DNA from: Chryseobacterium capnotolerans
GTDB lineage: Bacteria; Bacteroidota; Bacteroidia; Flavobacteriales; Weeksellaceae
Length of the DNA: 64,000 nucleotides
Assembly: GCF_021278965.1 (NCBI RefSeq)
Contig: NZ_CP065589.1
Span: 3,229,001 to 3,293,000 of the forward strand
Direction: 5' to 3'
Both the position numbers and the translations under genes were made by a program. The number at the start of each line of letters is the position of its first letter. The stretch's first letter is position 1. Positions 3,554 through 7,279 of this stretch are shown piece after piece. The notes under the pieces were generated by a model. The model had not been told where the DNA came from, did not search any database, and saw nothing but the letters and a program-made list of their open reading frames with translations.

Positions 3554-3669
3554 AGTTGTAAGTTTAATTTCTGTTGATATAAGGTCAAAACACTAATTTT
3601 CAAATGAGTGAACTGACCTTTTTATATTTTTGTAAAAATAATCAAAAATTTTTTATCTACGCAAAACTA

Positions 3670-3693
3670 TTGCGCAACAACGTTATTACTTTG
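3670..3693 (+). promoter_or_regulatory. rtcB promoter with TTGCGCA motif
   Basis: TTG (3670-3672), as part of TTGCGCAA, stands exactly 20 bases before TTTG (3690-3693) in the string ATTACTTTGC. This is a flavobacterial -33/-7 arrangement. The rtcB ATG at 3715 follows 22 bases later. The same TTG-CGCA/20-base/TTTGC layout precedes the nucleotidyltransferase gene at 10069 and the gene at 36462-37232. Confidence 0.65.
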
Positions 3694-3714
3694 CATCATC
3701 AAAATGACATAACA

Positions 3715-5097
3715 ATGGAATTTAACGGAAATCACTTAATCGAATTGGGATATAGACCCGCTAAATGGTTTAAAGATGCCATTACTCATATCAATGAAAA
3801 TCATCTGGATGAAATTCAGATCAAAGAATATCTGGAACAGTTCAAACAACCTGAACTTATTCCACTTCATGAAACCGCTCCTGAGTTTATCATTAACATC
3901 AGAGCTGAGCATGAAAATGAAACGGATAATGTAGAAAAAGTAATCAGAACCATGAATAAGCTGATGAAAACGCCTACTCTTACTGCCGGAGCTTTAATGC
4001 CTGATGCCTGCCCTACAGGTCCTGAAGGTTTGATTCCGGTTGGAGGTGTGGTAGCGGCCAAAAATGCCATTCACCCAGGATTCCATAGCGCAGATATCTG
4101 TTGTTCTGTAATGCTGACCGATTTTGGAAAGGTTAATCCTAAAGATATTCTGGATGCTGCTCATTCTGTGACGCATTTCGGATACGGAGGAAGACCAAGA
4201 GGGGAACAGATGCCTATGTCTCAGGAATTGATGGATGCTTTCAGAGAAAATGAATTCTTAAATGATGAAAAACTAATCAGCATTGCCCGTTCTCATATGG
4301 GAACACAAGGAGACGGAAATCATTTTCTTTTCGTTGGAGTTTCTAAAAATACAGGAAATACAATGTTAGTTACACATCATGGATCAAGAGCTCCGGGTGC
4401 AGCACTTTATGATAAAGGAATGAAAGTAGCCAACCGTTTCAGACAGGATATTTCTCCTGAAACGTTAAGGGAAAACGCATGGATTCCTTATGATACGGAT
4501 GAAGGAAAAGCGTATTGGGAAGCGCTTCAGCTTATCAGAACATGGACAAAAGAAAACCATACTTCTATTCATGATGCGGTTTTAAATAAACTGGAAATTG
4601 AAAAAGAAAACAGATATTGGAATGAACATAATTTTGTTTTCAAAGATGGTGATCTGTTTTATCATGCTAAAGGAGCTACTCCGCTGGATGATAAGTTTAT
4701 GCCTGATATTACGGGTCCGAGACTGATTCCATTGAATATGGCTGAACCAGTACTGATTGTTCAGGGAAAAACGAATGAGAGAAATCTTGGTTTTGCCCCA
4801 CACGGAGCGGGAAGAAACTTCAGCAGAAGCCAGCATAAAAGATCTATGGCTCATAAAACCACTGAAGAGATCTTCAATGAGGAAACTGCTGGACTGGATA
4901 TCAGATTCTATTCCAATGAAATTGATATTTCTGAGCTTCCAAGCGCTTATAAAAGTGCCGCTAATGTAAGAGCACAGATTGAGGAATACGGACTTTGTGA
5001 AGTACTGGATGAGGTGATGCCTTACGGATGTATTATGGCCGGCGACGTTCAGAAAAATGCACCTTGGAAGAAAAAGAAAAAATATAGAAAAGCATAA
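3715..5097 (+). CDS. rtcB: RtcB-family RNA ligase
   Basis: RtcB joins RNA 2',3'-cyclic-phosphate or 3'-phosphate ends to 5'-OH ends using GTP and Mn2+; it repairs RNAs cut by ribonucleases. Metal- and guanylate-binding signatures are present: [16 protein letters not shown] (residues ~119-132), [18 protein letters not shown], and the [12 protein letters not shown] block holding the guanylated histidine. The ATG at 3715 is chosen over an upstream one at 3604 because the promoter at 3670-3693 would lie inside the longer form. That gives 460 residues, close to other bacterial RtcB proteins. The gene is followed by a structured non-coding region and a protein of unknown function. RtcA is not present nearby. 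Confidence 0.93.
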
Positions 5098-5111
5098 TTT
5101 TTAATAGTAAG

Positions 5112-5196
5112 CCTTACAGATTTTGACAATCAGTAAGGTTTACAAAACAATCAAAACTAATAACCAAACCTTATGGGGATAAAATCCTATAAGGTT
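5112..5196 (+). other. Two hairpins in the rtcB 3' region
   Basis: First hairpin: CCTTAC-A-GATT (5112-5122) pairs with AATC-A-GTAAGG (5128-5138) around a 5-base loop. Second: AACCTTAT (5167-5174) pairs perfectly with ATAAGGTT (5189-5196), and a T-run follows at about 5206-5211. The second could be the rtcB terminator, or a processing or read-through point in front of the tRNA-like RNA. Confidence 0.55.
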
Positions 5197-5221
5197 CATG
5201 AAAACTTTTTTCATAACGGCA

Positions 5222-5328
5222 GGGGCAGTAGCTCAGATGGTAGAGCAACAAAATTACTTTTCGCTGCAGGCAAATAAAGTTCCTATGAATTCCAATTGTG
5301 GGTCACAGGTTCGAGTCCTGTCTGCTCC
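5222..5328 (+). ncRNA. tRNA-like RNA with a long insert replacing the anticodon arm
   Basis: Three parts of a tRNA are intact. The acceptor is GGGGCAG (5222-5228) with CTGCTCC (5322-5328), including one G-U pair. The D-arm is GCTC/GAGC around AGATGGTA (5231-5246). The T-arm is ACAGG/CCTGT around TTCGAGT (5305-5321). The anticodon and variable part, normally about 23 bases, is 58 bases long (5247-5304) and shows no 7-base loop on a 5-bp stem. Instead ACAA/TTGT, AATT/AATT and ACTTT (5256-5260)/AAAGT (5276-5280) can pair. No CCA is encoded. The RNA therefore cannot decode normally. A tRNA-like domain beside rtcB recalls the bacterial Y RNAs that accompany Ro60-RtcB operons, but no Ro60 gene is visible. 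It could alternatively be an interrupted tRNA. Confidence 0.7.
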
Positions 5329-5499
5329 TCAACATAATTTAAGGCAAAGAAAGTTCCTATAAGTTAGAAATACTTTCCGTCTTTTTTACAAATCATAAGG
5401 CAAAGGGAGTTCCTATATATTTGGTCATTACTCCCCGCTTTATAAAACTATAGGTAAAAGGAGTTCCTATAACACTTCACTTTTAATGAACCTACTCCT
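5256..5499 (+). repeat. Four-copy GTTCCTAT motif, three copies as covarying hairpins
   Basis: The block (A)GGCAAAN-RRAGTTCCTAT occurs at about 5269-5286, 5342-5360, 5398-5416 and, as AGGTAAAA, 5452-5470. In copies 2-4 the six bases ending in AGT pair with a downstream ACT box: GAAAGT 5349-5354 with ACTTTC 5372-5377, GGGAGT 5405-5410 with ACTCCC 5430-5435, and AGGAGT 5459-5464 with ACTCCT 5494-5499. The stem bases change together from AAA/TTT to GGG/CCC while TTCCTAT stays constant. That is what a conserved RNA hairpin with an exposed motif would give. In copy 1, inside the tRNA-like RNA, the ACTTT partner lies upstream instead. The last hairpin is in the leader of the next gene. Confidence 0.7.
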
Positions 5500-5524
5500 C
5501 ACTTATTTTTTTAAAATTAAAACA

Positions 5525-7279
5525 ATGAAAACATTACAATTATTCAATGCTGTATTGGCCAAAGAATCAAATGCAGAACCATTTATTTCTAATGACGGTT
5601 TTATTATTGAACCTGATGCAGTTTGGGCAAAAAAAGACATCATCTCCTATTATTCAAAAGAAAAACTGAATGGAAATGATTTGAATAAAACGTTCCATAA
5701 ATCTTGGGAGAAAATAAAAAACACCTCCAGATTTGATTTGTTTCTTGAGCAGATCCAACATTATATTTCAACCTATGGAAGTGATTTCCAGAGCGAGATC
5801 TATATTCCTCAAGAAATATTGAATGTTCCTGATACCAAGTTGATCTTTAAAGTCATAAAAGCTTATACCGTAGAAGAAATGCAGGAAAAATGCCTTTCTC
5901 TTCTACAATCCGGAATCGCTTTGAAAGAAGAAACGATTGATGATCTGCTGTATATCCTGCATACGGAACTGGAATATGATTTTACAGGAAAAGAAAATAT
6001 CAGAAATAAGGAAGCCATTATAAAAATAGCGGATCGATACGATGCTTACCCTGAAAATCCTGTTGAGTTTTTCCGTTATGTGATCTATAAGACCACCCAA
6101 ACAACATTATTAATCAAAAATGATGAATTAATTGGTTTAATTAAACAAAGTAAATTCAACCCAACGTATCTGTTTGAAAGTTTTGGTATGGAAAAACTGG
6201 CAGAAATTTTCAACAGATTTAAACCGTTATTCCTTGCTTATAAAAACAGGGCTCCGAAAGCGATTAATAAGATTTCGAAACTGTCTAAAGTAAATCATAA
6301 ACCATTAGTTTCGAACCCATTGAACAATGCTACCCATACATTACTGGAAAACAGTGATTGGCATTGGCTGGAAAATGCGACACCGTTTGCATTATTCAAA
6401 GCATTATCAGCGTGTTACTCAAGAATGTATGGTCAGGATACTTTTGTCTACAGAGTCAGAAACGGAAAATCATGGGTTAAAAAAGGGAAGGAAACTGATG
6501 TGAATCAATTCAACTATGAGTTTATTTTAGATTTTCTGAAACTGAAGTATGAACATATTTCCGGAAAGAAATTCTATTTCCCTAAGAATATAGAGTTTGC
6601 CCTTCCAACTTCTGAAAAAATGTTTGTTGGAAACATTCCTACCGGAACCCGTTTTTATGGTGATAGATTAGCCGTTGGTATCTATTGGGAAGACCAATGG
6701 GGTGCCCGTGATCTGGATCTTTCAGGACTGAATATTGCTGGAAAAATAGGTTGGAATGCCGCTTATAATTATGCTGACGGACAATTGATGTATTCCGGAG
6801 ATATGACTTCTGCTCCTAATGGTGCTGTTGAATATCTTTACGCCAATAAAGGCTTGAGTACTCCAACGCTTGTGATGAACAACGTTTTCAGCGGAGATGC
6901 CAACTGTGGATATAAAATCGTTATCGGAAAAGGAGATAATATCTCTTATGACTATATGATGAATCCTAACCAACTCTTTGCGGAAGTCAGATGTAATTCT
7001 GTTCAGAAGCAAATGATTCTGGGAATGCTGCTGCCAAAAAATGAAAAACAATGTTTCGTACTATTGAATTTCGGAGCGGGTCATTCTCATGTTTCAGGAA
7101 ATACGGAAGTATCTATGATGGCCACCAGTGCATTGTATCAGCAATGGTATGAAGCGATGTCCTTCAATGAGCTTATCAAAGAACTTGGAGCAGAGATTAC
7201 AACAGAAAAAGCGGAAGCTGATTTTGATTTCTCTCTGGAAAGCCTGGAGAAAGATAGCTTTATAAAAGTTTTTAAATAA
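5525..7279 (+). CDS. Protein of unknown function downstream of rtcB and the structured RNA
   Basis: The ATG at 5525 (MKTLQLFNAVL) is preferred over 5486 because the last RNA hairpin overlaps the longer form; this gives 584 residues. The N-terminal ~300 residues are predicted to be mainly helical, which would suit a repeat or scaffold domain. The C-terminal ~200 residues look beta-rich, with WEDQWGARDLDLSGL and MYSGDMTSAPNGAVEYL; these faintly resemble the DLDLS...SGD pattern of TerD-type domains, a weak hint only. There is no signal peptide or membrane segment, so it is probably cytoplasmic. Its position after rtcB suggests a role in RNA repair or as an RNA-binding partner of the tRNA-like RNA. 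I do not recognise the family. Confidence 0.75.
   Translation: MKTLQLFNAVLAKESNAEPFISNDGFIIEPDAVWAKKDIISYYSKEKLNGNDLNKTFHKSWEKIKNTSRFDLFLEQIQHYISTYGSDFQSEIYIPQEILNVPDTKLIFKVIKAYTVEEMQEKCLSLLQSGIALKEETIDDLLYILHTELEYDFTGKENIRNKEAIIKIADRYDAYPENPVEFFRYVIYKTTQTTLLIKNDELIGLIKQSKFNPTYLFESFGMEKLAEIFNRFKPLFLAYKNRAPKAINKISKLSKVNHKPLVSNPLNNATHTLLENSDWHWLENATPFALFKALSACYSRMYGQDTFVYRVRNGKSWVKKGKETDVNQFNYEFILDFLKLKYEHISGKKFYFPKNIEFALPTSEKMFVGNIPTGTRFYGDRLAVGIYWEDQWGARDLDLSGLNIAGKIGWNAAYNYADGQLMYSGDMTSAPNGAVEYLYANKGLSTPTLVMNNVFSGDANCGYKIVIGKGDNISYDYMMNPNQLFAEVRCNSVQKQMILGMLLPKNEKQCFVLLNFGAGHSHVSGNTEVSMMATSALYQQWYEAMSFNELIKELGAEITTEKAEADFDFSLESLEKDSFIKVFK

Follow-up and report, generated by a model that had tools for sequence, protein, structure and literature searches.

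An RNA module that belongs to no Rfam 15 family accompanies the gene of a 584-residue protein, ORF584, across genomes, and occurs in the leader of that gene in two circular permutations, one of them lodged within a tRNA-like RNA. We analysed 64,000 nucleotides of Chryseobacterium capnotolerans DNA (NZ_CP065589.1, positions 3,229,001 to 3,293,000; hereafter the window), in which an earlier note had described rtcB, a tRNA-like RNA, hairpins and an unknown protein as an RNA-repair system with its own RNA. The module and ORF584 lie outside all families of Rfam 15, Pfam and NCBIfam searched, and none of the entries listed in searches of the open-licence literature describes either. One module in two circular permutations, one within a tRNA, offers a direct route to identifying what binds it.

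Coordinates are those of the window, and features lie on the plus strand unless stated otherwise. The rtcB gene (3715–5097, ATG at 3715) is present, as the earlier note had described. Its 460-residue product matches PF01139 with 122.9 bits (queries started at codon 2, 3718). Its GNHF, HxGSR, HxKGAT and HGAGR motifs align with Pyrococcus horikoshii RtcB, and D-x-x-C aligns in a second, weak stretch that scores 2.4 bits. These are the RtcB active-site letters, and the product combines them with the Pfam match of an RtcB ligase. A structured leader (5098–5524) connects rtcB to ORF584 (5525–7279). A WYL/WCX regulator, the candidate controller, is encoded on the minus strand (2177–3196), and RlaP, a 155-residue ORF, an R2K ATP-grasp protein and a second RlaP are encoded at 10060–13307, placing RlaP nucleotidyltransferases within the window. 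At the 16 ORF584 loci outside Chryseobacterium, the fetched DNA contains rtcB at 10, a WYL-related gene at 7, and 7–17 tRNA genes at 6.

The tRNA-like RNA (5222–5329, 108 nt) is a cloverleaf with fully paired acceptor (5222–5228/5322–5328, 7/7), D (5231–5246, 4/4) and T (5305–5321, 5/5) arms, base 5329 occupying the discriminator place. It matches the Rfam tRNA family RF00005 with 48.9 bits (cut-off 29) and was missed by ARAGORN; our model R2 gave it 118 bits, as a member of the training set, versus at most 63.2 for ordinary tRNAs. The window copy has no 5-bp anticodon arm closed by a seven-base loop with U33. According to the earlier note, an insert had replaced the anticodon arm; the insert is present, but the base of the arm survives as pairs 27–29/41–43 (5248–5250/5297–5299). 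All three basal pairs occur in 84 of 87 distinct tRNA-likes, counted by a script that took the best of three variable-loop lengths; the 87 remained after two false rows longer than 130 nt (L160 and L161) were removed from 89. A complete arm, with seven-base loop, U33 and 5 bp, was found in 7 of the 87, leaving 80 without a decodable arm; two further listed loci (L152 and L176, for a listing of nine) were discounted because their loop letters were the module itself.

In isolation, the 108-nt RNA is not unusually stable (z = −1.10, 24/200 shuffles equally good) and minimum-free-energy folding was uninformative, so its support is comparative. In alignment A4 (37 rows hand-picked from the 87, which had been chosen solely on the pairing of their acceptor, D and T arms), covariation spans the whole cloverleaf, with 101 cells changed on both sides versus 22.8 in shuffles (0/500 as high). 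CAA follows the discriminator place in 78 of the 87, and the same holds for 7 of the 12 ordinary tRNA genes retrieved from the window's genome. The earlier note would have been contradicted by an ordinary tRNA at this place in relatives. Among 118 distinct ORF584 leaders 94 carry an insert-bearing tRNA-like and no insert-free tRNA appeared in the 73 inspected, which excludes an assembly artefact; together with the covariation, the 94 leaders also rule out a decayed tRNA.

The insert and the three hairpins downstream (5341–5505) are the same module in circularly permuted order: a P2 helix, a C/AAA internal loop and a UCCUAU bulge, with invariant unpaired letters in two loops. The hairpins span 5341–5383 (A; E = 1.2e-11, sequence in the training set), 5397–5441 (B; E = 2.7e-14) and 5451–5505 (C; E = 2.4e-12), the last being nearest the ORF584 start. 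The permuted copy within the anticodon arm (5256–5286) consists of P2 (5256–5261/5275–5280), P3 (5263–5265/5269–5271) and UCCUAU (5281–5286), and was found in 86 of the 87 tRNA-likes. The hairpins seen in the earlier note are real: the leader folds with z = −4.89 (0/100 shuffles equally good), and both module forms covary, the hairpin form in alignment A3 and the tRNA-like form in A4. Within A3, pairs changed on both sides and further pair types were not above shuffles (118/500 and 351/500 reached the respective values), and the alignment leans towards the structure because its 41 rows were hand-picked from 85 units themselves chosen partly by pairing. A test of the permuted P2 at 5 of 6 pairs proved too lax (139/140 versus 83.8 after shuffling), and this form was judged instead from A4 and the survey of 118 leaders. 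Outside Chryseobacterium, the loop of some hairpins harbours a T arm or a stem resembling an anticodon arm. An Rfam 15 scan of the leader returned just RF00005 and one chance snoRNA match (E up to 1).

Across 148 genomes, the set carrying the module hairpin coincides with the 92 whose ORF584 gene is full or split, and the hairpin occurs in 0/54 without ORF584 and in 0/2 with a C-terminal stub alone; the tRNA-like occurs in 78, all among the 92. Of 395 genomes across the phylum, 7 carry the module (best E 1.5e-13 or lower), and ORF584 was found in just those seven; two weak module matches (E about 1e-3) were taken as chance. By contrast, rtcB is present in 145 of the 148 genomes and is therefore not what keeps the RNA. 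We rejected RtcB as owner, since genomes that lack ORF584 but retain rtcB lack the RNA as well. The partnership with RtcB proposed in the earlier note is thus not borne out, and its other suggestion, an RNA working with the 584-residue protein, fits better. The RNA-repair setting with a dedicated tRNA mimic is supported by RlaP in the window, by an operator common with RlaP and Ro60 loci, and by the tRNA genes at 6 of the 16 loci outside Chryseobacterium.

All 118 leaders carry two to four module hairpins, 24 of them hairpins only; the UUCC of the last copy lies 45–108 bases before the ORF584 ATG, and an AATAGGT-like 5′ strand of the last hairpin is kept in 111. Three loci, none showing the module, were dropped before these counts (L033, a weak 38% match; L083 and L084, C-terminal stubs). 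In the window's genome, module matches are confined to the ORF584 leader, the next match having E = 0.66.

ORF584 has the length given earlier and, as noted above, no Pfam or NCBIfam match; a PDB sequence search yielded chance matches only. Confidence in the full-length predicted model is middling (pLDDT 75.8, pTM 0.52). The C-terminal half of ORF584 (residues 378–536) adopts a TerD fold in the model, with no Pfam TerD sequence match. Unlike TerD proteins, ORF584 fuses this part to about 350 mostly helical residues. The N-terminal half is helical in the model, but a fold search with it gave no significant match, and neither Ro60 nor its HEAT-repeat ring was among the matches listed, a result that excludes nothing. 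Kinship with Ro60 was rejected at the level of sequence, as profile comparison against TROVE/Ro60 gave an hhalign probability of 0.20 out of 100 (E = 0.3) and there was no Pfam TROVE match.

An operator-like inverted repeat, TACGCAAAACTATTGCGCA (3658–3676, unstranded), precedes rtcB, the leader and ORF584, and is followed by TTACTTTGCA (3686–3695), a likely −7 element. Allowing up to two mismatches, we found eight matches at six places in the window versus 0.52 expected, and 0/100 shuffles reached eight. The end of a second copy (10014–10032) is 27 bases upstream of the listed RlaP ORF, and the operator lies upstream of ORF584 in 76 of 80 named loci. The site is common to ORF584, RlaP, Ro60 and Y-RNA-like loci. 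The absence of a Ro60 gene asserted in the earlier note holds for the scanned part of the window, but elsewhere in the genome, some 0.7 Mb distant, there is a Ro60 (TROVE) gene accompanied by a Y-RNA-like array of its own under the same operator. The common operator links RtcB, RlaP, Ro60 and Y-RNA-like RNAs, joined in related genomes by tRNA genes and by a giant RNA of GOLLD-like type, as a testable RNA-damage regulon, through which the roles of GOLLD RNAs and of Y RNAs, the latter in culturable Chryseobacterium, become addressable.

The reading we favour, while holding it tentatively, is that ORF584 binds the module and that the resulting RNA-repair particle would present tRNA mimics to tRNA-cutting enzymes; such a particle would be analogous but unrelated to Ro60–Y RNA. 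A regulator that responds to damage, and is probably the WYL protein, would open the operator-bearing promoters of rtcB–leader–orf584, RlaP and Ro60/Y-RNA together. The tRNA-like would be excised from the transcript at its tRNA ends, and the helical half of ORF584 would grip the module at the C/AAA loop, P2 and UCCUAU, while the TerD half may serve to detect a ligand or metal. Bound tRNA-likes and tRNA pieces could then bait or gauge anticodon nucleases, with RtcB and RlaP mending cleaved tRNAs. More specifically, and with less assurance, the module in its two permuted frames may attach both whole tRNAs and parts of them, such as T arms, D stems and anticodon arms, to the TerD-domain protein. 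The resulting Ro60-independent particle would serve as an inducible bait-and-sensor array for tRNA-cutting toxins and would belong to the same regulon as RtcB, RlaP and Ro60–Y RNA. Co-occurrence of module and ORF584, cloverleaf covariation, the CAA context, the loop-borne tRNA arms and the shared operator count for a particle. Counting against it are the 24 leaders without a tRNA-like, the lack of ORF584–Ro60 sequence kinship, the N-terminal half that matched no known fold and the middling model confidence; without a decodable anticodon arm, 80 of the 87 tRNA-likes would be poor bait for anticodon-reading nucleases.

Further against a particle, the module stands solely before ORF584 in the window's genome, with its last UUCC close to the ATG, a position that a cis-acting autoregulatory leader would explain at least equally well. 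The main rival, a serious contender to which we give somewhat less credence than to the particle, is that the ORF584 mRNA leader uses hairpins and tRNA-like as operators: the true ligand would be tRNA, perhaps cleaved, the free protein would bind its own leader and shut translation, and damaged tRNA would release it. The hairpins kept near the ATG in every leader and the near-constant 5′ strand of the last one agree with this. Yet an operator would not need the whole cloverleaf, which is preserved together with its acceptor stem and tRNA 3′ context, Tenacibaculum shows tRNA-likes arranged two in tandem (L157 and L164; also L179), and Y-RNA-like RNAs elsewhere share the same DNA operator. The thrS mRNA leader and other tRNA-mimicking operators offer a precedent for tRNA-like elements in a gene's leader, but here a complete cloverleaf is joined by a repeated module that is no anticodon loop. 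PMC8394870 mentions the tRNA-like translational operator of thrS.

A metabolite-binding aptamer in tandem and permuted copies, controlling ORF584 on a tRNA scaffold, would account for the tandem copies and the invariant loop letters; it is improbable, as the module is found with ORF584 alone, not before varied genes, and no expression platform was recognised. Still less probable is a tRNA intron: the module would be cut out from between tRNA positions 29 and 30, and RtcB would join the exons into working tRNAs. The frequent proximity of rtcB speaks for splicing, as do complete CAU arms at five loci outside Chryseobacterium (L156, L159, L168, L169 and L177), a CAA arm at one more (L164) and a CCA arm at one Chryseobacterium locus (L146). 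However, most tRNA-likes lack such an arm, every leader also has the module as stand-alone hairpins, and the module is missing where ORF584 is missing though rtcB remains. Moreover, in the archaeal bulge–helix–bulge the bulges lie on opposite strands of the central helix, whereas both wide module loops lie on one strand.

We give least credence to a bacterial Y RNA proper with a distant Ro60 as partner, despite the tRNA-like domain, the RNA-repair setting and the operator common with the Ro60 locus. Like YrlA (RF02553) with Ro60/Rsr, the locus pairs a tRNA mimic having acceptor, D and T arms with RNA repair. Nevertheless, the ORF584 leader has no covariance-model match to RF02553, the Ro60 gene is distant and has YrlA-like RNAs of its own, and the RNA follows ORF584, predicted to be a TerD-fold protein without detectable TROVE kinship. 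The ends of the tRNA-like form an acceptor stem, with the module in the anticodon arm, rather than an end-to-end basal stem. The Salmonella rsr-yrlBA-rtcBA operon, described in PMC7790460 as under damage control, likewise brings rtcB and tRNA-like RNAs together; it relies on RtcR with sigma-54, versus an operator and WYL gene here, where the RNA goes with ORF584. Some hairpins outside Chryseobacterium, made of a basal module stem with a T arm in the loop, resemble the basal stem plus tRNA-like domain of YrlA as given in PMC8394870.

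Protein hits assign the window to Chryseobacterium. The gene for the 584-residue protein (ORF584; 5525–7279) lies behind rtcB (3715–5097; our query sequences began at codon 2, 3718), and the 427-base leader between them is more stably folded than every one of 100 shuffles (z = −4.89). The leader holds the tRNA-like RNA (5222–5329; RF00005, 48.9 bits) and three module hairpins (5341–5383, 5397–5441 and 5451–5505). Repeat comparison revealed GTTCCTAT and its surrounding string in both the hairpins and the tRNA-like insert. The parts of the hairpins run P3-AAA-P2-UCCUAU-apical-P2′-C-P3′, and those of the insert P2′-C-P3′-loop-P3-AAA-P2-UCCUAU. 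The insert is a circular permutation of the hairpin parts, in which P1, the anticodon stem, is the open end and P3 the closed one.

ORF584 loci yielded 171 leaders, 118 of them distinct, and a loose scan of ORF584 leaders returned 371 candidate places in hairpin order and 133 in permuted order. Under strict criteria, all 118 distinct leaders carry two to four hairpins (two in 33, three in 76, four in 9), a tRNA-like RNA is present in 94, and the permuted module occurs in 86 of 87 distinct tRNA-likes. One leader (L052, genome G019) has a tRNA-like with tens of extra bases in its T loop, which the tRNA-like count missed. In a control requiring P2 at 6/6 and P3 at ≥4/5, 307 of 447 GTTCCT units found their own 3′ partner, against a mean of 22.4 and a maximum of 33 with swapped partners (200 rounds); permuted units make up most of the other 140.

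Both forms covary. Among 41 hairpin sequences, 98.0% of cells are paired, against 78.8% in shuffles, with two-sided changes in 95 cells versus 28.8 (0/500); two further covariation measures were no higher than shuffles in this alignment. For 37 tRNA-likes the corresponding values are 97.6% versus 87.1% and 101 versus 22.8 cells (0/500). Pairing reaches 96.4% in the arm base, 91.4% in P2 and 98.2% in P3, none of which played a part in choosing the 37 rows. No P3 pair of these tRNA-likes changes on both sides, and the outermost pair of P2 is broken in 18 of 37.

From these alignments we built covariance models of the hairpin (R1) and the tRNA-like RNA (R2). In the Chryseobacterium capnotolerans genome, a single 5.36-Mb contig, the sole R1 matches were the three leader hairpins (best other hit E = 0.66), and R2 scored 118 bits for the tRNA-like RNA, itself a training-set member, against at most 63.2 for ordinary tRNAs. 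ORF584 is present in 94 of 148 genomes of the genus, as a C-terminal stub only in two (G035, G139) and as a split gene in four (G033, G062, G092, G118). R1 (E ≤ 1e-5) was found in 92, precisely the 94 minus the two stubs, and R2 (E ≤ 1e-17) in 78, all within the 92. Since both models match only in genomes with ORF584 while rtcB of the window type (E ≤ 1e-100) is near-universal (145 of 148), the RNA accompanies ORF584, not RtcB. Hairpins are retained where ORF584 is split or has an in-frame stop (the four split-gene genomes and locus L157); these copies reflect either recent decay or assembly errors. Phylum-wide, ORF584 occurs in 7 of 395 genomes and strong R1 matches in the identical seven, the two draws agreeing in counts and listed handles; two additional R1 matches were weak (~1e-3). 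A family search found ORF584 in 101 of 296 genomes and 4 of 33 genera, one by a weak match.

Named genomes gave 116 loci, of which 80 were kept, 16 of them outside Chryseobacterium. Hairpins precede ORF584 in all 16 and a tRNA-like RNA occurs in 10 (the L157 leader being counted as its duplicate, L181). In Pedobacter (L171) and in a Chitinophagales MAG (L170) the leader holds just two hairpins; in Epilithonimonas (L165) the tRNA-like directly follows the promoter, without rtcB. The fetched DNA of the 16 includes rtcB in 10, a WYL gene in 7 and an RlaP-like gene in 3. Six loci (L157, L164, L166, L168, L169, L177) contain 7–17 tRNA genes (ARAGORN) around ORF584, most of them grouped in arrays; in L169 an operator copy lies ~0.8 kb upstream of the array. 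A complete anticodon arm is absent from 80 of 87 tRNA-likes. The tRNA-likes of Lacinutrix, Winogradskyella, Bizionia and two MAGs keep a complete CAU arm, and their module sits between positions 29 and 30; a Tenacibaculum tRNA-like keeps a CAA arm and one from Chryseobacterium a CCA arm. By reading, some non-Chryseobacterium hairpins hold a small stem next to a T arm in their loop (in L177, for instance, CTGGTTCGATTCCAG-AGCTCGAAAGAGC), and an L159 hairpin has a CAGACUUUUAAUCUG arm.

The inverted repeat TRCGYAAAANNNNTGCGYA upstream of rtcB, searched at ≤1 mismatch across the whole C. capnotolerans genome, gave 11 matches at ten sites, against 1 for the reversed pattern. Besides the rtcB copy, sites precede RlaP (10014), a 256-residue ORF without Pfam match (37299–37317) and a DUF5677 gene (56178–56196), and one lies near a 358-residue ORF without Pfam match (49289–49307); the ORFs at the last three are candidate new regulon members. 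An S15-Flavobacteria ribosomal protein leader (RF03161, 50.9 bits) lies at 37700–37745 on the minus strand. Elsewhere, one copy precedes the Ro60 gene and two a Y-RNA-like array beyond it (L096:6500–7900; ~3.926–3.927 Mb, minus strand), another precedes a 454-residue SDR-like gene (L219; C1:3964500–3971500), and the tenth site is weak. Two places in the array match YrlA below the cut-off of 69 bits (33.3 and 31.9; E = 1.6e-4 and 4.2e-4); in both, the order is permuted to T arm, closed acceptor, D arm, and the two operators lie upstream. In L219:900–4960, the operator, SDR-like gene, further ORFs, tRNA-Val(TAC) and tRNA-Cys(GCA) share one strand. The operator lies upstream of ORF584 in 76 of the 80 named loci, and in 12 of the 16 outside Chryseobacterium a copy stands 266–683 bases before ORF584, directly before the leader. 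We infer that the WYL protein reads it.

Because ORF584 and the module co-occur, this protein is probably the module's binder. The RNA may act in cis alone, as an autoregulatory leader of ORF584, and the module's place exclusively before the ATG fits such a role. Action in trans, as a Y-RNA-like particle with ORF584, is favoured by the retained, covarying cloverleaf, by the CAA 3′ context (in 78 of 87 tRNA-likes, and likewise in 7 of 12 ordinary tRNA genes), by tRNA-likes in tandem and by the operator shared with Y-RNA-like RNAs; we predict it tentatively. The kind itself, an RNA mimicking tRNA in the context of RNA repair, is already known. Our comparisons were the Salmonella rsr-yrlBA-rtcBA operon (PMC7790460) and the Y RNA description in PMC8394870. 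In PMC7824862, TROVE proteins together with a tRNA-like partner are presented as an RNP platform for repairing RNA, RlaP is predicted to restore lost bases, and TerD is suggested as a possible sensor of a signal. The module RNA family, its permutation and ORF584 turned up in none of the libraries or literature listings searched.

The giant RNA GOLLD (RF02032) is possibly tied to the RNA-repair regulon. It matched below its curated cut-off of 150 bits in an uncultured Bizionia (L168:3809–4286; E = 2.8e-37, 135.3 bits) and an uncultured Lacinutrix (L177:3876–4353; E = 3e-36, 131.9 bits), in each case flanked by an operator copy on one side and the tRNA-like RNA on the other, with tRNA arrays in the same loci.
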